NCBI GenBank assembly: GCA_902760805.1
Contig: CACWHY010000006.1
Coordinates: 106,391 to 170,390, forward strand
From: Ruminococcus flavefaciens
GTDB taxonomy: Bacteria > Bacillota > Clostridia > Oscillospirales > Ruminococcaceae
Length of the DNA: 64,000 nt
Direction of reading: 5' to 3'
This document shows, one piece after another, positions 37,935-53,505 of the stretch. The notes beneath the pieces are model-generated. The model was not told the DNA's origin. It made no database searches and saw only the letters and a program-made list of their open reading frames with translations. Positions within the stretch are counted from its first letter, which is position 1. Each line of letters opens with the position of its first letter. The position numbers and the translations under genes are program-made.

Positions 37935-38741
37935 TTATTTTAGCAGTATGCTCACTGTTATGGCAGCGGCATAGAAGATGATCGTGACTGCAAGTGCGAT
38001 GAAGTCACGGGGAGCAGCCTTTAGCTGGCGGAGCCTAGTCCTGCCCTCGCCGCCGTTGTAGCAGCGGCACTCCATAGCGGTGGCAAGCTCGTCGGCTCGT
38101 CTGAATGAGGAGACGAACAGCGGCACCAGTATGGACACCATGTTCTTGGCTCTTGTGATCATGCTTCCCGTGTCGATCTCAGCGCCTCTCGCCTTCTGAG
38201 CAGAGATGATCTTGTCGGTCTCCTCAATGAGAGTCGGGATAAATCTCAGGGCTATCGACATCATCATCGCCAGCTCATGCACCGGGAAGTGTAGCTTTTT
38301 CAGCGGAGACAGCAGCCTTTCGATGGCATCCGTCAGCGCAATGGGCGATGTGGTGTAGGTCAGCAGGGAGCTTCCCATGATCAGCAGCACGATCCTTATG
38401 ATCATGAAGAGGCTGATGTTCAGGCCGTCTTCGGTGATCTTCAGAAATCTCCACCTGAAAAGCACGTCACCGGTGTTCACCAAAAACAGGTTGATCGCAG
38501 CGGTTATCACCAAGAACGGCAGCAGAGGCTTTACGCTCTTCAGGAACATTTTCAGCGGTATCTTTGACAGAGCTATCGCCATCACGGTGTACACTGTTCC
38601 CACAGCCAGACACAGTATATGGCTCCCTGTGAAGAGCATGAGGATGTACAGCAGGGTCATCACGATCTTGAAGCGGGGGTCAAGCCTGTGGATAAGGCTT
38701 TCTCCCGGAAAAAACTGTCCTATGGTTATATCTCTGAGCAA
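37935..38741 (-). CDS. ecfT: Energy-coupling factor transporter transmembrane protein EcfT
   Basis: Membrane coupling subunit of an ECF vitamin/metal importer. The 268-residue protein has about five membrane helices and the cytoplasmic coupling motifs AQKARGAEID near residue 184 and RRADELATAMECRCY near 217, the two Ala-Arg-Gly-type signatures of EcfT. The start is a TTG at 38739-38741 with GAGGG eight bases upstream, one base after the ecfA2 stop. No substrate-binding S component is encoded in the window, so this is the shared module of group II ECF transporters. Confidence 0.94.
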   Translation of the reverse strand: MLRDITIGQFFPGESLIHRLDPRFKIVMTLLYILMLFTGSHILCLAVGTVYTVMAIALSKIPLKMFLKSVKPLLPFLVITAAINLFLVNTGDVLFRWRFLKITEDGLNISLFMIIRIVLLIMGSSLLTYTTSPIALTDAIERLLSPLKKLHFPVHELAMMMSIALRFIPTLIEETDKIISAQKARGAEIDTGSMITRAKNMVSILVPLFVSSFRRADELATAMECRCYNGGEGRTRLRQLKAAPRDFIALAVTIIFYAAAITVSILLK

Positions 38742-38742
38742 A

Positions 38743-39606
38743 TCACTGACCCTCTCTTTCCGAAAGCTGTTTCAGCAGCAGGTCCCTGGCATATCCCACG
38801 GTATAGACCTCCTTGCCGAAATCCAGTCCCCGACCCTTCAGCCGGTCGAAAACTCTTGTGATCTGAGGAACGTCAAGTCCGATCTGTGAGATCTCCTCAG
38901 AGCGTCCGAAGACCTTTTTTGTCTCGTCGTAGCAGAAGAGCTTTGCCTTGTTCATGACCAAGATCTTGTCGGCGAAGCCTGCAATGTCCTCCATGCTGTG
39001 GGAAACGATGAGGATCGTGTTCTTTGTGCGCCGGTGATAGGCCTTTATGTGGTCGAGGATCTTGTCTCTTCCGGCAGGATCAAGGCCGGCAGTAGGCTCG
39101 TCCAGGATCAGCACCTTAGGCTCCATAGCCATGACTCCGGCAATGGCCACTCTTCTCTTCTGGCCGCCTGAGAGCTCGAAGGGGGATCTGTCCAGGAGCT
39201 CCTCCTTCAGGCCGATGTCCTCAGCGGTCTCCATGACCCTGCGCTTGATCTCGGCCTCGTCCAGACCCATATTTTTCGGGCCAAAGGCTATGTCCTTGTA
39301 CACGGTCTCCTCAAAGATCTGGTACTCAGGGTACTGAAAGACCAGCCCCACCTTGAAGCGGACGTCACGGATCTTGTCCTTGTCCTCCCAGATGTCCTTC
39401 CCTTCAAGGAGCACCTTGCCGGAGGTGGGCTTGAGCAGGCCGTTGAAATGCTGTATAAGGGTGGATTTTCCGGAGCCGGTATGACCCATTACTCCCACCA
39501 TCTCGCCCTCGTCTATCCTTAGGTCAACGTGATCCACAGCAGTCTTCTCAAAGGGCGACCCCACGCTGTAGGTGTAGGTCAGACCCTGTGTTTCAAGTAT
39601 TGGCAA
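38743..39606 (-). CDS. ecfA2: ECF transporter ATP-binding protein EcfA2
   Basis: One of two ABC ATPases that drive the ECF module. The 287-residue protein shows Walker A GHTGSGKSTLI near residue 40, the Q-loop FQYPEYQIFEET, signature ELSGGQKRRVAIAG near residue 142, Walker B KVLILDEPTAGLDP and the switch histidine in VSHSMEDIA. It starts with TTG at 39604-39606 with AAAGGAG about nine bases upstream. The order ecfA1-ecfA2-ecfT is standard in Firmicutes. Confidence 0.94.
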   Translation of the reverse strand: MPILETQGLTYTYSVGSPFEKTAVDHVDLRIDEGEMVGVMGHTGSGKSTLIQHFNGLLKPTSGKVLLEGKDIWEDKDKIRDVRFKVGLVFQYPEYQIFEETVYKDIAFGPKNMGLDEAEIKRRVMETAEDIGLKEELLDRSPFELSGGQKRRVAIAGVMAMEPKVLILDEPTAGLDPAGRDKILDHIKAYHRRTKNTILIVSHSMEDIAGFADKILVMNKAKLFCYDETKKVFGRSEEISQIGLDVPQITRVFDRLKGRGLDFGKEVYTVGYARDLLLKQLSEREGQ

Positions 39607-39664
39607 TATGATGCTCTCCTTTTAATAGTAATCGCAGTTTATCTTGATCTGTTCGGGAGCCTCG

Positions 39665-40513
39665 TCAGCTTCTGAAAAGCCTCTCGATAGCGTCGGCGCA
39701 CTCCTCCTCAGTGAGTATATCACCGGGAATATCGCAGCCGGCCTTGCGCAGCTCCCATGCAAGCTCAGTGACCTGAGGCACGTCAAGGCCTATGCTCTTG
39801 ACCTCCTCCACACGAGAGAAAACTGCCTTAGGCGAGTCGTCCATGACAACTCTTCCCTTGTCCATGACCACCACTCTCCGGCACTGAGCGGCCTCGTCCA
39901 TGTAGTGAGTGATCAGAACGATGGTGATGCCCTTCTCCTTGTTCATGCGCTTGATCGTAGCCATCACCTCACGCCTGCCCTGCGGGTCAAGCATAGCGGT
40001 GGGCTCGTCCAGGATTATGCACTTTGGCTCCATAGCGATGACTCCGGCGATAGCGATACGCTGCTTCTGGCCGCCTGAGAGCTGGCTCGGTGAATGGAGC
40101 CGGTAGTCATACATATTAACAGCCTTCAAAGACTCGTCAACTCTCCGGCGCATCTCCTCATAGGGAACGCCCAGGTTTTCCAGAGCGAAGGCCACGTCCT
40201 CCTCCACAACGGAGGAAACTATCTGGTTATCCGGATTTTGGAACACCATCCCTGCCCTCTGTCTCAGGTCGAAGAGCCGCTGCTCGTCAGCGGTGTCTAT
40301 GCCGTCCACCAGCACCTTTCCCGAGGTGGGGAGAAGAATGGCGTTTATGTGCTTGGCGAGGGTGGATTTTCCGGAGCCGTTATGCCCCAGCACAGCCACG
40401 AATTCGCCCTGCTCAATGTTAAGGTCTATGCCCTTGAGCACCTCCACATCGGGGGTCTCCTCGTCCCCCTTGTAGGAAAAGTGCAGGTCCTTTATCTCAA
40501 TGATATTGCTCAT
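39665..40513 (-). CDS. ecfA1: ECF transporter ATP-binding protein EcfA1
   Basis: Partner ATPase of EcfA2. The ATG at 40511-40513 ([17 protein letters not shown]) is the start, behind GGAAGGA; the frame extends further upstream into the methyltransferase gene, but without a start site. The 282 residues contain Walker [14 protein letters not shown]-loop [11 protein letters not shown], signature [14 protein letters not shown], Walker [13 protein letters not shown] and H-loop ITHYMDEA. The 58-base gap to ecfA2 shows no terminator. Confidence 0.94.
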
Positions 40514-40539
40514 GATCCTTCCTTTTCTATTGGTGCGGA

Positions 40540-41403
40540 CTACTTCTGCCAGATCGCAGTTGAGCCGCATGGCAGGGTCATTCCTGTTGACTTTACCGGC
40601 AGACCGATCTCGTCGAAGGAGACCTCTCCGCCGAATCTGTCCGTGAGCACGCTGCCCAGTATGTAGCCCATTACCGAGGGCGAAAGTCCCGTAGTATAGC
40701 TGTTTATCAGGAAGAACAGCGGGTCGTCCGACAGCACTCCTGCCGAGAGCTTCACCAGGTCATAAACGCAGTTCTCCAGCTTCCACACCTCACCGCCGGG
40801 GCCTCTTCCATAGCTGGGAGGATCCATAACGACGGCGTCATAGCGCCTTCCTCTGCGGATCTCACGGGCGATGAACTTCTCACAGTCGTCCACGATCCAG
40901 CGCACGGGCTTCTCGGAAAGTCCCGAAGCAGCGGCGTTTTCTCTAGCCCACTGCACCATGCCCTTTGAGGCGTCAACGTGGCACACCGAGGCGCCTGCTG
41001 CTGCGCAGGCGAGGGTAGCTCCGCCGGTGTAGGCGAAGAGGTTGAGCACACTTATGGGGCGTCCGGCGCTGCGGATCTTGTCGGCCATAAAGTCCCAATT
41101 CACGGCCTGCTCCGGGAAAAGTCCGGTGTGCTTGAAGCCTGTGGGACGGATATTGAAGGTGAGCTCTCTGTAGTGGATATTCCACGAGCTCTCCAGCTTT
41201 CGGCGGAACTCCCACTGACCGCCGCCCTGATTTGAGCGGTGATAGTGGCCGTCAGCCCTCTCCCAGAGAGGGTCCTTCTTGTCGGTCTTCCAGATGATCT
41301 GGGGGTCCGGCCTGACAAGGCTGACACCGCCCCATGTTTCCAGCTTTTCGCCGTCTGATGTATCCAGTATGATATAGTCCTTCCAGTTATTGGCTGTTCT
41401 CAA
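40540..41403 (-). CDS. Class I SAM-dependent methyltransferase (RlmI-like)
   Basis: Predicted RNA methyltransferase of 287 residues. It starts with TTG at 41401-41403, with AAGGAG seven bases upstream. The SAM-binding motif [20 protein letters not shown] lies near residue 125, followed by [16 protein letters not shown]. The catalytic-type motif DPPSYGRG is near residue 200. These match the RlmI/RlmK-like group that modifies 23S rRNA, though the N-terminal PUA domain of RlmI is not clear here. The target base cannot be assigned. It lies 21 bases after the glmM-like gene. Confidence 0.82.
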
Positions 41404-41424: not shown

Positions 41425-42777
41425 TCACTGTCCGCAGCGTTCCTTTATAGTATCGGCGACCTGTATCGCCATAGTGTTTATGGTAGTGAAGTCCTCGCCC
41501 TCCACCATTATGCGGATAACGGGGCTGCGTCCGGCCTCCCGGACTATGATCCTGCCGTCCTCGCCGAGGATCTCCTCGAACTCGTCGATAAGGCCGGTGA
41601 TAGCTCTGTCGTTTTTCCAGATCTCACGGTCCTTGGGCGAGATCCTGACGTTGATCATGACCTGTGGCAGCTTCTTGATGACGCCGGTGAGCTGGCTCAT
41701 CCTGCCGCCGGACTCCTTCAGGATCTCCAGCAGCTTTATGCCGGTGAGCTGGCCGTCTGCCGAGGGCGCATCATCGGGAAATATGATCTGTCCGCCGGGG
41801 TCTCCGCCGATAGAGAAGCCCCCCTCCAGCATTTTCCGGTGGAGGTACCTTCCGGCCGATCCGGCCTGAACGGTATAGATGCCGTTCTCACGGGCAAAAT
41901 GGAGAAGTCCCAGGTTGTTTGAGGCAGTCACCACCAGGGTATTGTGGCGGAGAGTGCCCTTGTCCTTCATGTGCTTTGCGCAGATCGCGATCAGCTCGTC
42001 GCCGTCGGCCAGCCTGCCGTTTTCGTCAACAGCCAGGCATCTTTCTGCGGCGCCGTCGAAGGCCAGTCCGCAGTCGCACTCGTTCTCCTTTACGAACTCC
42101 ATGAGCCGGTCGATGTGAGTGCTTCCGCAGTCGAGATTTATGTTGGTGCCGTCGGGAGAGCTCCCCATGAGCACCACCTCTGCCCCCATGCCGGTGAAGA
42201 TGTCCTTTGCAGTGGAGGAAGCGCAGCCGTTTGCGCAGTCCACAGCGATCTTCATGCCGGAAAGATCCGCAGAGCTTAGGCTCTTTATGTGTTCAAGGTA
42301 CTCCGAAAGGGCGTTCTCGCAGCGGATAACGTTTCCGTAGATCCGCCTGGGGATCGGTTTGAGCTCCGCCGGGTCAACAGTGACAAGGCGCTCGATCTCC
42401 TCCTCGTCCTCGTCGGAGAGCCGGTGGCCGTAGGAGGAAAACAGCTTCATACCGCCGAATTCCGCCCCCACATGAGCTGCGGTGATCATGATACCGCCGT
42501 CAGCCTCATGGACGCCGATAAGGTACGCCAGCGCCGGTGCCGGCACAACTCCCAGAAGCTCGGCATCGGCTCCCGCAGAGCATATCCCTGCGCAGAGCGC
42601 TGCCTCAAGAGTATCCGAGGAGCTTCGGGTATCCTTGCCGATAAGGATCCTGGTCTTTTCGCCGGAGTTTCCCTCCATGACAGCGGCGGCGGCACGTCCG
42701 ATCTGCATACACAGCTCAGCTGTCAGCTCGGTGACGGCCACGCCTCTGATGCCTTCCTTTCCAAAGAGTCTGCTCAT
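41425..42777 (-). CDS. GlmM-like phosphohexomutase family protein lacking catalytic residues
   Basis: A 450-residue homologue of phosphoglucosamine mutase, full length and alignable throughout (MSRLFGKEGIRGVAVTELT). Every catalytic loop is altered. The phosphoserine loop, normally SASHNPxxDNG, reads TAAHVGAEFGG (residues 99-109), with Ala101 at the serine position. The metal loop DGDGDR is DGAAER (241-246). The sugar loop GGEQSGH is GGDPGGQ (324-330). The phosphate loop RPSGTEP is REAGRSP (413-419). Such a protein should not be able to interconvert glucosamine phosphates. The intact frame and conserved core argue against a decaying gene. It is coupled by ATGA overlap to the gene before it. 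A regulatory or scaffold role is possible but not shown. Confidence 0.88.
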   Translation of the reverse strand: MSRLFGKEGIRGVAVTELTAELCMQIGRAAAAVMEGNSGEKTRILIGKDTRSSSDTLEAALCAGICSAGADAELLGVVPAPALAYLIGVHEADGGIMITAAHVGAEFGGMKLFSSYGHRLSDEDEEEIERLVTVDPAELKPIPRRIYGNVIRCENALSEYLEHIKSLSSADLSGMKIAVDCANGCASSTAKDIFTGMGAEVVLMGSSPDGTNINLDCGSTHIDRLMEFVKENECDCGLAFDGAAERCLAVDENGRLADGDELIAICAKHMKDKGTLRHNTLVVTASNNLGLLHFARENGIYTVQAGSAGRYLHRKMLEGGFSIGGDPGGQIIFPDDAPSADGQLTGIKLLEILKESGGRMSQLTGVIKKLPQVMINVRISPKDREIWKNDRAITGLIDEFEEILGEDGRIIVREAGRSPVIRIMVEGEDFTTINTMAIQVADTIKERCGQ

Positions 42778-43328
42778 TTATCGTTCTCCTTTTGGTCTGT
42801 CTTTATCCAATAAGCCGCAATGGGCCGTTTTCTGCCGATGACCTCCTCCAGAGTTTTGCACAGCTGGACGTTGGGGCAGTTGTTATACCTGTTGTAGACA
42901 AGTATGCCTGTGGCCTTCCTTACGCAGAAGACCGTGTGTATGGAGGAGAGAAACCTCCTCCCTGTCCAGAATGAGACGATGAAGGCCTCATGCCTGGGCT
43001 CTATGCGCCTAATACGCTCAAAAGCTGCGCCGTACCTGCCGAGAGCTCGTCCCAGCCTATACGGACTGCAGCCGAAGATACCGAATAATACCTTTGAACG
43101 CTCCAATGTGCCGGCGATCTCCCAAAGCTCCTGGGGCTTTCCCAGCCATACCAGGGCGTTGTACACCGAGATCACCTCGCAGCCGTTGAAGCTCATATGG
43201 CAAAGGCCGTATCTCATCTGAGAGACCTGTCCGATAGCCTGTCCGTTGATCATGCGGTGTGGGAGCATTTTGTCCTTCATGGAGCTGTTATGCCGGAGGT
43301 TGTACCTCCGTGAGCCCTTGATAAGCAT
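42774..43328 (-). CDS. Uncharacterised protein with papain/C39-like Cys-His motif
   Basis: A 184-residue protein with no signal peptide. The centre reads RYGLCHMSFNGCEVISVYNAL, in which NGC (C50) followed by a helix recalls the active-site cysteine of C39-like and papain-fold peptidases. A later histidine in SSIHTVFCV (H131) and an Asn in YNRYNN (N146 or N150) would complete a Cys-His-Asn arrangement. This is a pattern match only; the protein may be non-catalytic or bind a ligand. It is basic at the N-terminus. It overlaps the glmM-like gene by four bases and follows ruvB by three, so the two odd proteins are probably made together. Confidence 0.62.
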   Translation of the reverse strand: MLIKGSRRYNLRHNSSMKDKMLPHRMINGQAIGQVSQMRYGLCHMSFNGCEVISVYNALVWLGKPQELWEIAGTLERSKVLFGIFGCSPYRLGRALGRYGAAFERIRRIEPRHEAFIVSFWTGRRFLSSIHTVFCVRKATGILVYNRYNNCPNVQLCKTLEEVIGRKRPIAAYWIKTDQKENDK

Positions 43329-43331
43329 GGC

Positions 43332-44387
43332 TCAGAACGAAAGCTGCCCGTCGTCCGAGGGCGGTGCTTCCGGAGCCTTCATGCCAAGGTGCTCATAGGC
43401 CAGCCTTGTGGCGACCCTTCCCCGGGGAGTTCTTCCCAGGAAACCCAGCTGCATGAGGAAGGGCTCACAGATGTCCTCTAAGGTGACGGACTCCTCGCCG
43501 ATAGCGGAGGCAAGGGTCTCCAGCCCCACCGGGCCGCCGTTGTAGCCACGGATTATCATTTCCAGCATACGCCGGTCAAGGCTGTCCAGACCCAGAGCGT
43601 CGATCTCCAGGCGGCTAAGAGCGATAGAAGCGATCTGCTGGTTGATCTCGCCGTTGCCCATAACATCGGCAAAATCCCGGACACGCTTGAGCAGCCTGTT
43701 GGCGATACGGGGCGTGCCTCTTGCACGGCCTGCGATCTCAGCGGCACCGTCGGTGGTACAGGGTATGCCAAGGATCATGGCGCTCCTGCGGACGATGTCG
43801 GTGAGCTGATCCTTTGAGTACAGCTCAAGGCGGTGGATAACTCCGAAACGGTCACGAAGAGGGGCAGAGAGCTGGCCTGCACGGGTAGTTGCTCCAATGA
43901 GGGTAAAGGGCTTCAGGTCCATGCGGATAGACCTTGCAGAAGGGCCCTTTCCGATGATGATGTCGATGACTCTGTCCTCCAGCGCCGGGTAGAGGATCTC
44001 CTCCACCGCACGGGAGAGCCGGTGGATCTCGTCGATGAACAGCACATCGTTGTCCGAAAGGCTGGTCAGAAGAGACACCAGGTCCCCGGGCTTCTCGATA
44101 GCCGGACCCGTGGTCACACGGAGATTTACGCCCAGCTCATGGGCAATAATGGACGAAAGAGTGGTCTTTCCCAATCCGGGAGGGCCGTAGAGCAGGACAT
44201 GATCCAGGGGCTCGCCACGGCGCTTTGCAGCCTCAATGTACACAGCCAGGTTTTCCTTTACCTTGTCCTGGCCGATATACTCGCTTAGGGTCTGCGGGCG
44301 GAGGCTGACCTCTGTATCGCCGTCCTCCGCAGTCTCAGAGGGAGTGATCACTCTGGGAGCGAACTCCATATCCTCTGTCTGTATCAA
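43332..44387 (-). CDS. ruvB: Holliday junction branch migration helicase RuvB
   Basis: Hexameric AAA+ motor that moves Holliday junctions with RuvA. The 351-residue protein has Walker [12 protein letters not shown] near residue 65, Walker [16 protein letters not shown] and the sensor [18 protein letters not shown]. The C-terminal winged-helix has [12 protein letters not shown]. The start is TTG at 44385-44387 with GGAGG seven bases upstream. It is separated from ruvA by an sseB-like gene, whereas ruvA and ruvB are usually adjacent. Confidence 0.97.
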
Positions 44388-44413: not shown

Positions 44414-45145
44414 TTATTTCTCGAAATAGCGTTTCTTGCGGACATAGAAGGGCTCAACTGTCTCGGCAGCCTTCTTGCCCATATCCTGCTCATAGCTGAT
44501 GAAGCAAAGATGCTCGTTGGCCTTGACGGTCTTTGAGAGGTACTTTGAAAGGGGCACGAAGAGCTTTCTTGTGCTGCCCATCATATCCAGCACCATGAGG
44601 ATCTGCGGCCTCTCACAGCCCTTGATCATCTCCATGATGAAGGCACGGTCAACATTGGGCTGCTTAGAAAGGAACTTGGAAGCTGCCTTTGTGATGTGAG
44701 TGACTGAATGCTCGACCGGGCGGTATGAGATGATGTCAGCCTCGTTGTAGGAGATAGCCTTGATCTTCAGATTTCTTGCGATGAGAAGGATGCTCTTGAT
44801 CTCCTGAGAGGAGAACTCCTTGCCGTAGGAGTTGGGGTTGAGGACGGCTGAAACTGACTGGATAAGGTCGAAAAGTCTCAGGCAGTTGATCTTATAGCAG
44901 TCAACATAGCGCTTTGCGAACTGCTGGAGGGAACGATAGCTGGTAAAGAAGGGGATGAACATATCTCCGTGAGGATTTTGGATAGTGATCAGCTCCAGCT
45001 GTATGCCGCCTTCCTCTCTTCCACGCTCCTGGCGGACGGGATTTTTGCAGATGACGTAAACATCGCTCTTGATAAGGGTCTGTAAAAACAGCGATCTTTT
45101 TGAGGGATCCTTTATGGCTGCTTTCAAGAGTTCGTCAAGGTTCAT
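44414..45145 (-). CDS. SseB family protein between ruvA and ruvB
   Basis: A 243-residue cytosolic protein. The ATG at 45143-45145 ([20 protein letters not shown]) behind AAGGAAG is the start; an upstream extension overlaps ruvA and is not credible. The N-terminal half (about 15-110, [14 protein letters not shown], then [15 protein letters not shown]) has the SseB N-terminal domain pattern. The C-terminal half (about 125-243) may be the SseB C-terminal domain. The family was named for enhanced serine sensitivity in Escherichia coli and its role is unclear. Placement inside the ruv genes is unusual. Confidence 0.78.
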
Positions 45146-45173
45146 AGTCGATTCTTCCTTTCGATATATATAT

Positions 45174-45791
45174 TCAGCGCTTTGCTGTAATGATCCTAAG
45201 GGTCTCCTTGATAAGATCCTGAGTGCTAAGGCCTGCGTCCAGCTTTCCAAGGATAGGAGCGACCTCTCCCTGGGAATATCCCAGCACCATGAGAGCCTCA
45301 AGAGCCTCAGTCACTGAGGTGGAGGCGCCTCCCGATGAAACTGCCGAGATAGCCGCAGCGTCGCTGGCAACTGAGCCGCTGAGGGACTCTGCCGAGATCT
45401 TATCCTTCAGCTCAAGAACGATCCTCTGAGCTGTTTTCGCACCGATGCCCTTTGTCCGGGTGAAGGACTTGCTGTCGCCGGAAGCAACGTAAAAGGCGAA
45501 TTTTTCCGGGGTCATGTCCGAGAGGATAGCGGTTGCGGCTTTCGGGCCCACTCCCGACACTGAGATCAGCAGCTTGAAGCAGCTCAGCTCCTGCAATGTG
45601 GCGAAGCCGAAGAGCTCCACTGCGTCCTCACGAACGTAAAGGTAGGTATATAGGGTCTCCTCGCTGCCGATGCTGCCCAGCTGAGAGACTGTGCTGTATG
45701 AAGTCCGGCAGCCGTAGCCCACTCCGCCGCATTCGATTACGACGAAGCCCAGCTCACGGACAGTCAGCCTTCCTCTTAAACTGTAGATCAT
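45174..45791 (-). CDS. ruvA: Holliday junction DNA-binding protein RuvA
   Basis: Tetrameric protein that holds the Holliday junction for RuvB. The 205-residue chain has domain I (about 1-63, MIYSLRGRLTVRELGFVVIE), helix-hairpin-helix motifs in domain II (SGVGPKAATAIL near residue 79 and KGIGAKTAQRIVLELKDK near 114) and a Ser/Ala-rich linker. Domain III (about 160-205, EALMVLGYSQGEV) binds RuvB. It follows ruvC by 21 bases. Confidence 0.97.
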   Translation of the reverse strand: MIYSLRGRLTVRELGFVVIECGGVGYGCRTSYSTVSQLGSIGSEETLYTYLYVREDAVELFGFATLQELSCFKLLISVSGVGPKAATAILSDMTPEKFAFYVASGDSKSFTRTKGIGAKTAQRIVLELKDKISAESLSGSVASDAAAISAVSSGGASTSVTEALEALMVLGYSQGEVAPILGKLDAGLSTQDLIKETLRIITAKR

Positions 45792-45812
45792 ATCATTCTT
45801 CCTTATCTCCGG

Positions 45813-46298
45813 TCAGCTCCAGCGAATGGAGTGGCCGTGGCAAATAGCTATGGCAAGGGCATCTGCGGCGTCATCGGGCTTGGGGATCTGTGCCAGCCTC
45901 AGGATCTGGCGGGTCATCTCCATGACCTGACGCTTTTCGGCCTTTCCGTAGCCCACCACCGACTGCTTGACCTGCAAGGGAGTGTACTCCGAAACGGGGA
46001 CTCCCCTTTTTGCGGCGGAGAGGACGGTAACTCCTCTTGCCTGCGCCACGTCGATAGCGGTCTTTTGGTTAGTGGTAAAGTACAGGCGCTCGATCGCCAT
46101 GCAGTCGGGCTTGAACTTGTCGAAGATGAACTCCACGTCCTCGTGGATCGCACGGAGCCTTTCGGGGAAGGGCGTACCGGCATCGGTGAGGACAGCGCCG
46201 TATTCCAGCGGAGTAAAATTCAGCCCGTCGTATTCCAGCACTCCGAAGCCGACTATTGCGTAGCCGGGATCGATGCCCAGGATACGGATCTTGTTCAT
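45813..46298 (-). CDS. ruvC: Holliday junction endonuclease RuvC
   Basis: Resolves Holliday junctions by paired nicks. The 161-residue protein starts MNKIRILGIDPGYAIVGFG, with the first catalytic aspartate in GIDPG (D10). It has the second acidic residue in MAIERLYFTTNQKTA (E70) and the final acidic cluster in DDAADALAIAICH (about 138-145). GGGAGG precedes the ATG. It is the first gene of the long minus-strand block. Confidence 0.97.
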   Translation of the reverse strand: MNKIRILGIDPGYAIVGFGVLEYDGLNFTPLEYGAVLTDAGTPFPERLRAIHEDVEFIFDKFKPDCMAIERLYFTTNQKTAIDVAQARGVTVLSAAKRGVPVSEYTPLQVKQSVVGYGKAEKRQVMEMTRQILRLAQIPKPDDAADALAIAICHGHSIRWS

Positions 46299-51218: not shown

Positions 51219-51247
51219 TTGACTTTTCAGAGTCACCGTGATAGAAT
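51219..51247 (+). promoter_or_regulatory. Promoter of the GH5 endoglucanase gene
   Basis: TTGACT (51219-51224), 17 bases and TAGAAT (51242-51247), about 95 bases before the ATG. A second -10-like TATAAT lies at 51186-51191 without a proper -35. The AT-rich stretch 51065-51218 also contains TTGCACAA (51079-51086) and its reverse complement TTGTGCAA (51159-51166). Otherwise nothing is seen in this 320-base gap. Confidence 0.72.
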
Positions 51248-51342
51248 TAGTGTGTAATCAAAGATTATTGCACAGGTTTACTGCACTGGACCTGGGCACA
51301 TACGTCTTGAAAAACAAAAAAACATATCCATGGGAGGGTAAT

Positions 51343-53505
51343 ATGTTTAACGAGAAATCTACTGTTAAGCGCATTGTCAGCATCTCAGCTGCCGCTGTTT
51401 GTATGCTCTCTGCACTTAAGGTCGCTCCGATCGCTGACTTCGAAGCAGACGCAGCAAAAACAATGTCAGCATTTGAGATCACTGAAAACATGACTATCGG
51501 CTGGAACTTAGGTAACACTCTGGATGCTATCGGCGACGAGAAGCACACCGGTGTCAACACTGAGACTGCATGGGGCTGCCCCAAGGCTACTCAGGAGCTC
51601 TTCGATGCTATCAAGGCTAAGGGCTTCAACACAGTTCGTGTTCCTACCACTTGGTTCCAGCACCTTGACGAGAACAACAACATCGATCCTGCATGGATGG
51701 CAAGAGTCAAGGAAGTCGTTGACTACGGTATCAAGAACGATATGTACATCATCCTGAACGTTCACCACGAGAACTGGATCAACAGAAACGATCTCCTCAC
51801 TGCCTATGACGAGATCAACCCCAAGCTCATGAAGATCTGGACTCAGATCAATGAAGAGTTCAAGGACTACGATCAGCACCTCATCTTCGAGTGCTTGAAC
51901 GAGCCCCGTGCTGTTGACAAGCCCTATGAGTGGTGGTCAGCTTCACCTGTTCAGGAGTCTGATGTTATCAACAAGCTGGAGCACAACTTCGTTGACCTGA
52001 TCAGAAACTCCGACAGCCCTTACGCAAAGACCCGTCTGCTGATGCTTCCCGGCTACTGCGCAAGCCACGAGCTGGTATTCATCGAGGCTATCGATCTTCC
52101 TAAAAACGATCCCTACCTTGCAGTTTCTATCCACGCTTACAGCCCCTACAACTTCACAATGAACACTGATGCCTCTCAGGGTGCTCAGCACGATACATTC
52201 ACTGATAAGTACAGGACTGAGCTCAATGGTATCCTCACAAACATCAGAAATACTTTCATCGACAACAACGTTCCTGTTGTTATCGGCGAAATGGGTGCTT
52301 CTAACTTCGGCAACACAGAGGCAAGATGCGAGTGGGCTAACACTTACATCACAACCGCTAAGAAGTACGGTATCCCCTGCGTTCTCTGGGATAACAACAC
52401 TGTTACCAACACCAAAGATCCCGGCGAGTGCCACGGCTATATCAACAGAGAAACTTATCAGTGGTACAGCGAGTCCGAGAAGGTCGTTGACACTATGATG
52501 AGCGTTATCAATGACGACTCCATCGCCTGGGGCAGCGAGGGTCACCTCCCTGAGGTAACCCATCAGACTCTCAGCGACGGCACTGTTTTCCTTGAGGGTC
52601 CCGTTGAGATCGACGACGCTAAGTCCGAAACATTCGAGAACACAACTCCCGGCAAGGACATCACCTGGGCTGAGCTTGAGAACAAGGAAGTTGCTATCAA
52701 GTTCACAGGCGCTACTCCTTTCCTGTCATTCTCCAACGAAGGCTACGGCAACTGGACTGAGCTTTCTCCTTACGAAGTTGATAAGGAAAACGGCATCGCT
52801 TACTACCTCATGAGCCAGCTTCCTGACGCTTGGGGCAAGGACACTGCTGAGATCGCTCATATGCAGTCCAGAACTCCCAGCCAGACTACTATCCAGTCTA
52901 TCACTATCCTCGCTGAGCCTACAGGCGAGATCCAGCTCCCTGAAGAAACTTCCAAGATCGTTAAGATCGACCTTTCTGAGGCTGACAGAGCAGACACTCT
53001 TGAAGTGATCGTTTCTGCTCCTGCTGGTACAGAGCTGACAGGCGGCCTTGGCTATATGCTGGACGAGTGGACTCAGAAGCTTTGGGATGGCACTATCGGT
53101 GCAGACGGCACTCTGAAGGTAGAGTTCTCACTGAGCGATATCCCTGAGTCTGTTACACAGGCAGAGTTCCAGGTATGGGGCAACTTCGACAAGGTAACTG
53201 ACGTTAAGTACAGCTTCGTTGGTGCTCAGCAGCCCACAACAGAGCCTACTACTAGCGATCCTATGCCTGCTGTAACACCCGGCGACGCTACAGGCGACGG
53301 CAAGGTAAATCTGAACGATGCAGTTGCTATCCTTCAGTATGTTGCTCTTGCAAACAAGTATCCTCTGCCTTGTCCTCAGAACGCTGATATCGATGGCACA
53401 GCCGGTATCAACGGAATGGACGCTCTGGTCATCCAGATGGTAGATGCAAAGCTCATTAAGCAGGAACAGCTTCCTCTGCCTGCTGGCTACGTTCTTCCCC
53501 TTTAA
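51343..53505 (+). CDS. GH5 endoglucanase with two beta-sandwich modules and a dockerin
   Basis: Cellulosomal beta-glucanase of 720 residues. The ATG at 51343 has GGGAGG five bases upstream; an open extension before it is not protein-like. The signal peptide runs to about residue 38. The GH5 catalytic domain (about 40-395) has NVHHENW near residue 139, the acid/base E187 in CLNEPR and the nucleophile E316 in IGEMGAS, most like subfamily 4. Two further modules (about 405-525 and 530-632) look like carbohydrate-binding beta-sandwiches of no family I can name. A Pro/Thr linker leads to a dockerin (647-720) with loops DATGDGKVNLND and DIDGTAGINGMD. Its dockerin matches that of the 724-residue protein at 58.3 kb. 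Confidence 0.93.
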   Translation: MFNEKSTVKRIVSISAAAVCMLSALKVAPIADFEADAAKTMSAFEITENMTIGWNLGNTLDAIGDEKHTGVNTETAWGCPKATQELFDAIKAKGFNTVRVPTTWFQHLDENNNIDPAWMARVKEVVDYGIKNDMYIILNVHHENWINRNDLLTAYDEINPKLMKIWTQINEEFKDYDQHLIFECLNEPRAVDKPYEWWSASPVQESDVINKLEHNFVDLIRNSDSPYAKTRLLMLPGYCASHELVFIEAIDLPKNDPYLAVSIHAYSPYNFTMNTDASQGAQHDTFTDKYRTELNGILTNIRNTFIDNNVPVVIGEMGASNFGNTEARCEWANTYITTAKKYGIPCVLWDNNTVTNTKDPGECHGYINRETYQWYSESEKVVDTMMSVINDDSIAWGSEGHLPEVTHQTLSDGTVFLEGPVEIDDAKSETFENTTPGKDITWAELENKEVAIKFTGATPFLSFSNEGYGNWTELSPYEVDKENGIAYYLMSQLPDAWGKDTAEIAHMQSRTPSQTTIQSITILAEPTGEIQLPEETSKIVKIDLSEADRADTLEVIVSAPAGTELTGGLGYMLDEWTQKLWDGTIGADGTLKVEFSLSDIPESVTQAEFQVWGNFDKVTDVKYSFVGAQQPTTEPTTSDPMPAVTPGDATGDGKVNLNDAVAILQYVALANKYPLPCPQNADIDGTAGINGMDALVIQMVDAKLIKQEQLPLPAGYVLPL

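Follow-up and report, generated by a model that had tools for sequence, protein, structure and literature searches.

Pseudoenzymes are usually thought to arise from the death of a duplicate of an active gene. The nearest known case to the one described here is PGM5/aciculin, described in PMC7761743 as an inactive vertebrate phosphoglucomutase paralogue that retains Ser121, the three metal-binding Asp and substrate binding. GlmM, in turn, has been described as an inhibitor of CdaA/DacA. In that work (PMC8573169), domain 2 of B. subtilis GlmM is the CdaA-binding domain, and the residues that contact Arg126 of CdaA are D151, E154 and D195, the text giving both D194 and D195 for the last of these. 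No report of a GlmM pseudoenzyme was found among the papers listed in searches of the open-access literature, with subscription journals mostly outside that search.

In this study we analysed glmM-A (copy A), a gene on a 64,000-nucleotide stretch of Ruminococcus flavefaciens DNA (the window). Its product resembles bacterial GlmM (TIGR01455; B. subtilis 7ojr) in its fold domains, its length, a nearly gap-free alignment and its standing as an orthologue by position, but differs in four altered loops, in a score below the family cut-off and in the presence of a second, canonical GlmM in the same genome. Like PGM5, the window protein has kept the phosphohexomutase fold and would have lost mutase activity beside an active relative. 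PGM5 keeps the Ser and the metal Asp, however, whereas the window protein has lost the Ser and one Asp. With regard to the substrate binding of PGM5, the window protein retains Arg413 of the phosphate loop. A further difference concerns which copy is the older one: across most genus genomes searched, the native gene is altered and the newcomer is intact; what is new here is a native gene that appears to have been retired after a foreign one came. The GlmM that inhibits CdaA/DacA would share with copy A a second function in a GlmM protein, but the window protein lacks all three of the acids named there as CdaA contacts (PMC8573169).

The native gene and its operon slot

Read on the plus strand, the glmM-A interval contains internal stops, and the minus-strand ORF gives a protein of 450 residues (Table 1). 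This protein carries four PGM_PMM domains across its full length, each above the Pfam cut-off, and its closest PDB relatives are GlmM structures such as 7ojr and 3pdk, which match along almost the whole length (E about 2e-100). Together with the nearly gap-free alignment, these matches confirm the initial annotation, which had called the gene a full-length GlmM homologue and had read its four loops exactly as we find them: TAAHVG, DGAAER, GGDPGGQ and REAGRSP. Measured against the marks of GlmM, the window protein has Ala101 at the place of the catalytic Ser in loop 1, DGAAER at that of the three metal-loop Asp (DGDxDR), and GDPGGQ and REAGRSP at those of GEQSGH and RxSGTEP. Its score against the glmM equivalog model TIGR01455 was 438.3 bits, 9 bits below the cut-off of 447.55. 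By native gene position it is nevertheless a GlmM orthologue, as judged from ruvB-glmM-methyltransferase synteny and from trees. Of the 92 sites that do not vary among 25 canonical sequences of this lineage, 21 lie in the loops and 71 elsewhere; the window protein departs from them at 10 and 15, respectively (Fisher p = 0.025), and its substitutions are denser inside the loops than outside. Most likely, glmM-A is no longer a GlmM, and the missing Ser101 and D243 suggest that its product has no mutase activity.

Table 1. Positions of the native glmM, its altered loops and its neighbours in the window
Feature	Position	Strand	Basis
ecfA1-ecfA2-ecfT, three downstream genes so labelled	37935..40570	-	synteny
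SAM-dependent methyltransferase, downstream neighbour of the native slot	40540..41403	-	Pfam, synteny
glmM-A, native GlmM orthologue with four altered catalytic loops, 450 aa	41425..42777	-	ORF, Pfam, NCBIfam, PDB, motif tables
Phosphate loop 4, residues 413-419, REAGRSP (canonical RESGTEP), Arg413 retained	41521..41541	-	sequence
Domain-4 Trp387-Lys388, kept in canonical and altered genus A, absent from B	41614..41619	-	
Sugar loop 3, residues 324-330, GGDPGGQ (canonical GGEQSGH)	41788..41808	-	sequence
Metal loop 2, residues 241-246, DGAAER (canonical DGDADR), D243A and D245E	42040..42057	-	sequence
Loop 1, residues 99-104, TAAHVG (canonical SASHN[SP]), catalytic Ser101 to Ala	42466..42483	-	sequence
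184-aa protein encoded upstream, overlapping glmM-A by ATGA, with a conserved Cys50-His131-Asn146 pattern and without a Pfam match	42774..43328	-	
ruvB, upstream neighbour of the native slot	43332..44387	-	Pfam, NCBIfam, synteny
sseB-like gene (Pfam), with upstream ruvA and ruvC	44414..46298	-	same order in sufficiently long genus loci

In genus loci long enough to show the order, copy A is surrounded by ruvC-ruvA-sseB-ruvB, the gene for a 184-aa protein, glmM, the methyltransferase gene and ecfA-ecfA-ecfT. The labels ecfA1, ecfA2, ecfT, ruvA and ruvC were given on reading the sequence, and those of ruvB, sseB and the methyltransferase gene rest on family models. The ecfA1-ecfA2-ecfT set is syntenic downstream of glmM-A in many genus loci and in several order-mates. 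Of 104 altered loci, 95 showed both ruvB and the methyltransferase gene (many loci have a flank of just 1.5 kb or stop at a contig end), as did 9/9 canonical loci and 7/16 order-mate glmM loci, with ruvB seen at 12 of the 16. None of the 39 loci of the second GlmM, copy B, showed this pair, and neither ruvB nor the 184-aa nor the methyltransferase neighbour of A was present at any of them. The order-mate glmM genes have canonical Ser, metal and sugar-Glu residues, and A clusters with them in the tree. Four genomes from other genera of the same family hold a single GlmM, which is A-type and has intact Ser, metal Asp, sugar Glu and phosphate loop, two of the four showing GGEDSGH. Because the ruvB-glmM-methyltransferase slot recurs in order-mates with a canonical glmM, we conclude that glmM-A is the native, vertically inherited glmM of the Ruminococcus lineage, in its original operon slot.

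The 184-aa protein was detected at 97/104 altered and 7/9 canonical loci, and at 0/16 order-mate loci. The window copy has no Pfam match, and 12 members of its family searched against Pfam hit three families, one member each, with weak E-values of 0.017 or more. Cys50, His131 and Asn146 are invariant in the 12 aligned members, and presumably resemble a papain-type triad. Translational coupling between this protein and glmM-A had been proposed for the window, where the ATGA overlap is indeed present, but the arrangement is not conserved: at 100 loci, with distances resting on stop-to-stop ORFs, the two genes overlap at 6, lie 0-30 nt apart at 40 and further apart at 54. With overlap at only 6/100 loci, coupling as the sign of a two-protein complex was rejected as a general feature. 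The gene context of glmM-A points to no partner or ligand. Elsewhere in the window (51238-53505, plus strand) lies a large protein that by eye resembles a glycoside hydrolase with a C-terminal dockerin, as expected for a cellulosome-type Ruminococcus.

A second, intact GlmM

We searched the genome to which the window belongs (2.73 Mb in 44 contigs, 96.5% complete) for PGM_PMM_I and obtained matches at three places: the window gene A, GlmM copy B and a phosphohexomutase of 571 aa that is of another type. The second glmM with normal motifs that the initial annotation had suggested looking for is therefore present. Copy B carries the loops SASHNP, DGDADR, GGEQSGH and RESGTEP, lies on a different contig (C35, with A on C6) and is only about 38% identical to A over the match. 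It scored 528.5 bits against TIGR01455, and a canonical native copy (L014) scored 565.6. One glmS and one glmU were found above cut-off in the window genome, so that with B the UDP-GlcNAc route looks complete. The catalytic columns of B are intact in all 39 genus copies read, and also in a fortieth (G070).

B was used as a query against a sample of 293 genomes of the class. Among the matches listed, the first 37 rows, from 36 genomes with its own included, showed at least 54% identity, and the next matches listed at most 49%. In 32 of the 36 genomes with a B-type match, that match was the only one at E <= 1e-20, which suggests that B replaced the native gene in those 32. Copy B is a xenologue: it belongs to a different lineage, is patchily distributed and was horizontally acquired. 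In five genomes from different branches (G008, contig C8; G009, C67; G021, C58; G011, C123; G066, C17) B lies about 17-23 kb from A, and this proximity may mark the original entry site of B. One genome from another family of the class (G316) holds two B-type GlmM (L299 and L341). Both have canonical Ser and metal loops, and they share 70% and 57% identity, respectively, with the B of Ruminococcus.

The 125 genus genomes searched fall into 9 with an intact canonical A, 1 with a canonical A in two pieces (G084), 99 with a full-length altered A, 4 whose A is fragmented or truncated at a contig end (G024, G105, G077, G035), 7 with a very divergent A counted outside the 99 (G116, G122, G140, G124, G087, G121 and G139, the last split over two contigs), 3 with B and no A found (G014, G080, G070), and 2 with neither found (G068 and G093, 73% and 71% complete). 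An altered A is thus present in 110/125 genomes and mostly uninterrupted, the broken copies being those of G024 (a stop) and G105 (two overlapping pieces). Among named strains, R. flavefaciens XPD3002, YAD2003 and Y1 hold an altered A, which in YAD2003 and Y1 is of the DGDADR type, and R. albus AR67 and 8 a single canonical copy.

No second GlmM match was found in the nine canonical-A genomes, in contrast to a further match at E <= 1e-30 in 95 of the 99 genomes with a full-length altered A (Fisher p 1.8e-10, uncorrected for kinship), where matches beyond the 39 genomes with B read were counted by match and not by reading the sequence. The four altered-A drafts lacking one are G005 (90% complete), G078 (79%), G111 (70%) and G135 (73%). 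When only genomes at least 90% complete were considered, a second match occurred in 0/5 canonical and 57/58 altered genomes. An altered A also accompanies B in 37 of the 39 genomes with B read (broken in G105, on two contigs in G139), and in the other two, G014 and G080, no A was found.

The altered copies do not fall together in every tree. In a careful tree built without loop columns, 17 of 21 altered rows formed one clade (100/99), three (G115, G103 and G088) lay beside the canonical G079 (88/86, an open fork) and L254 stood apart. A quick tree that included the loops also placed G115, G103 and G088 with G079. A single clade of all 21 rows was rejected (AU p = 0.0275, loop columns removed), with the caveats that X_L254 is a long branch and that the groups were named after earlier trees had been seen. 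A further copy, L220, which was not among the 21 rows, sits beside the canonical L217 (100/99) and departs from the canonical loops just by GGEQNGH. A FastTree of a larger set, again without loop columns, conflicts with the AU result and gathers the altered rows in one group (support 0.95). We reject a single origin of altered A for the 21 rows with caution, on moderate evidence. Firmer evidence comes from B itself. For the B of G115 and that of G149, the genome of L254, membership in the main B group of the genus was rejected (AU p 4.9e-6 and 0.0018, respectively), and the test for the B of G150, the genome of L220, gave p 0.39. These results support at least three arrivals of B (in the main genus, in G115 and in G149), each beside an altered A.

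Grades of alteration and selection on copy A

Alteration of A differs in degree among its groups. The 40 copies of the window type all carry D241, E245 and R246 (DG--ER); Ser101 is present in 35 and Arg413 in 38, and D243, D245 and E326 are each present in none, with E326D and Q327P highly conserved. Conservation of the altered loops among relatives, a point raised when the gene was first annotated, therefore holds for DG--ER but not for the change of Ser101 to Ala, since loss of this Ser is rare (G000, G094, G005, G099 and G102). In the 27 copies of the DGDADR-intact group, the Ser and all three Asp are kept throughout and other loops are changed; two of them (G016 and G060) have lost none of the 13 key residues and are quite possibly active. 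The 32 copies of the divergent group have no common consensus, show 20 different metal-loop strings and in no case carry the Ser with the three Asp, and the later-found copies L178-L184 are still more degenerate. Four among the most degenerate (L054, L055, L178 and L179, from G002, G026, G116 and G122) have no alignable N-terminal T-D-G-x-R-G segment, their match starting near residue 18 or later. Alteration is thus a matter of degree, and enzymatic activity may persist in some A copies. For annotation this carries a warning: altered copies can pass TIGR01455, as did three of the five scored, and the window copy misses it by just 9 bits.

Selection was assessed by dN/dS (Nei-Gojobori, pairs with dS < 1.5 and identity > 0.6). 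The median was 0.12 for altered A (244 pairs), 0.094 for canonical A (15 pairs) and 0.064 for B (111 pairs), and the 28 closest altered pairs listed ranged from 0.009 to 0.172. These values indicate that the product of altered A is maintained under purifying selection, with some relaxation. Random decay, under which the homologues would show no conserved replacements, was rejected as the main account on the basis of dN/dS. Its retained Pfam domains and the selection on its coding sequence are features that glmM-A shares with phosphohexomutase pseudoenzymes of the PGM5 kind. To the extent that sequence can show it, the canonical B, purifying selection and partly conserved replacements support the earlier proposal of a maintained pseudoenzyme.

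We also compared divergence among the four domains, with the loops left out and the domain borders set by residue number. Against the nine canonical genus copies, domains 1 to 4 had diverged 2.95-, 1.21-, 2.51- and 1.10-fold in the window type, 2.18-, 1.04-, 2.12- and 1.07-fold in the DGDADR group, and 3.78-, 1.61-, 2.73- and 1.41-fold in the divergent group. Against order-mates the corresponding values were 0.81, 0.74, 0.77 and 0.57; 0.60, 0.64, 0.64 and 0.55; and 1.04, 0.99, 0.83 and 0.73. Domains 1 and 3 are the more relaxed ones solely against the nine canonical genus copies. On the order-mate baseline just domain 4 stands out, domains 1, 2 and 3 showing no clear difference, and domain 4 was less diverged than domain 1 in 100%, 75% and 100% of site bootstraps for the window-type, DGDADR and divergent groups, respectively. 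In the window type and among the divergent copies, both baselines show less relaxation in domain 4 than in any other domain.

Three residues, W387, K388 and E414, are shared by 93% or more of the copies in each of the four genus groups and are uncommon in order-mates. Trp387 is found in no B, and every altered class has it in 93% or more of its members. Near relatives with canonical or nearly canonical copies have W387 in 20/20 cases and K388 in half, which hints that this domain-4 feature is older than the catalytic loss.

Explanations and significance

We consider it fairly probable that, after the horizontal gain of B, copy A was freed from catalysis and kept for a non-catalytic role. A canonical xenologous GlmM would have been acquired horizontally and would have taken over the step from GlcN-6-P to GlcN-1-P. 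Copy A, released from catalytic constraint, would then have lost its loops to a degree that differed from branch to branch; in the window species the loss of the phosphoserine, of one metal-binding Asp and of sugar- and phosphate-loop residues is seen directly. Purifying selection would keep A as a folded protein, probably for binding or scaffolding, and domain 4 with Trp387-Lys388 may take part. The native enzyme may already have had this role beside its catalysis. More tentatively, we propose that the native GlmM was bifunctional, with a domain-4 (WKN[DE]) role that B cannot supply, and that it was stripped down to this role at each takeover.

Other explanations account for part of the data. 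Copy A could be a neofunctionalised enzyme with phosphohexomutase-type or phosphoryl-binding chemistry on another sugar phosphate, DG--ER and GGDP forming a new site. The constancy of D241, E245 and R246 in the window type, its frequent Ser101 and Arg413, the conserved E326D and Q327P, and the full set of Ser and Asp in the DGDADR group all fit such an enzyme. We nevertheless regard it as unlikely, as the window protein lacks both D243 and Ser101, the family's phosphoryl carrier, and the metal loops of the divergent copies are so varied. A mixed complex, in which A would tune GlmM-B, is in keeping with the dimers that GlmM forms according to PMC8573169 and with the co-occurrence of altered A and a further GlmM match in 95/99 genomes; but the low A-B identity and the foreign origin of B make a ready-made shared interface unlikely, and we rate this account as improbable. 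That A is a decaying leftover heading for loss, held by its operon position alone, we find scarcely believable. Three B genomes have no A found, two A copies are damaged, A evolves faster than B and 32 copies have diverged without common loops, but an altered copy persists in 110/125 genomes, the closest pairs listed have low dN/dS, and Trp387 is retained in every altered class.

The initial annotation had suggested that a non-catalytic copy could have a part in c-di-AMP control or pair with true GlmM, and we weighed whether A binds CdaA and regulates c-di-AMP synthesis, as GlmM does in Bacillus and Staphylococcus. Both cdaA and cdaR are present in the window genome, whose own CdaA aligns well with the solved CdaA, and Arg150 would by chain numbering be the counterpart of Arg126. 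Domain 2 is only slightly relaxed (1.0 to 1.6-fold) against canonical genus copies, but not so against order-mates. At the positions of D151, E154 and D195 the window protein has R, N and G, and thus no acid at any of the three. D151 is absent even from canonical A (0/9) and order-mates (0/16), and occurs in 3/103 altered rows and in 39/39 B, where no acid stands at 154 or 195 and one stands at 194 in 39/39. The cdaA gene lies on contig C9, and neither cdaA nor cdaR was seen at any A or B locus examined. After this mapping of residues and linkage, control of CdaA by A is not supported and appears very improbable. The counter-evidence is not conclusive, because, according to PMC8573169, the complex formed almost as before when these GlmM residues were replaced by Ala.

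Collectively, our results favour a non-catalytic role for a retained native GlmM, and describe an inherited gene of an essential pathway that was apparently retired in place at least three times after a foreign enzyme came, and that is still kept. They offer nature's own experiment in separating the catalytic from the non-catalytic roles of GlmM, and the canonical, partly altered and fully altered orthologues form a set in which a hidden second function of GlmM may be sought, in cell-wall precursor supply or beyond. If the native enzyme was indeed bifunctional, the genus would represent a natural series of enzyme-to-pseudoenzyme conversions in one operon slot, with active sites that range from canonical and partly altered ones to others that are no longer recognisable.
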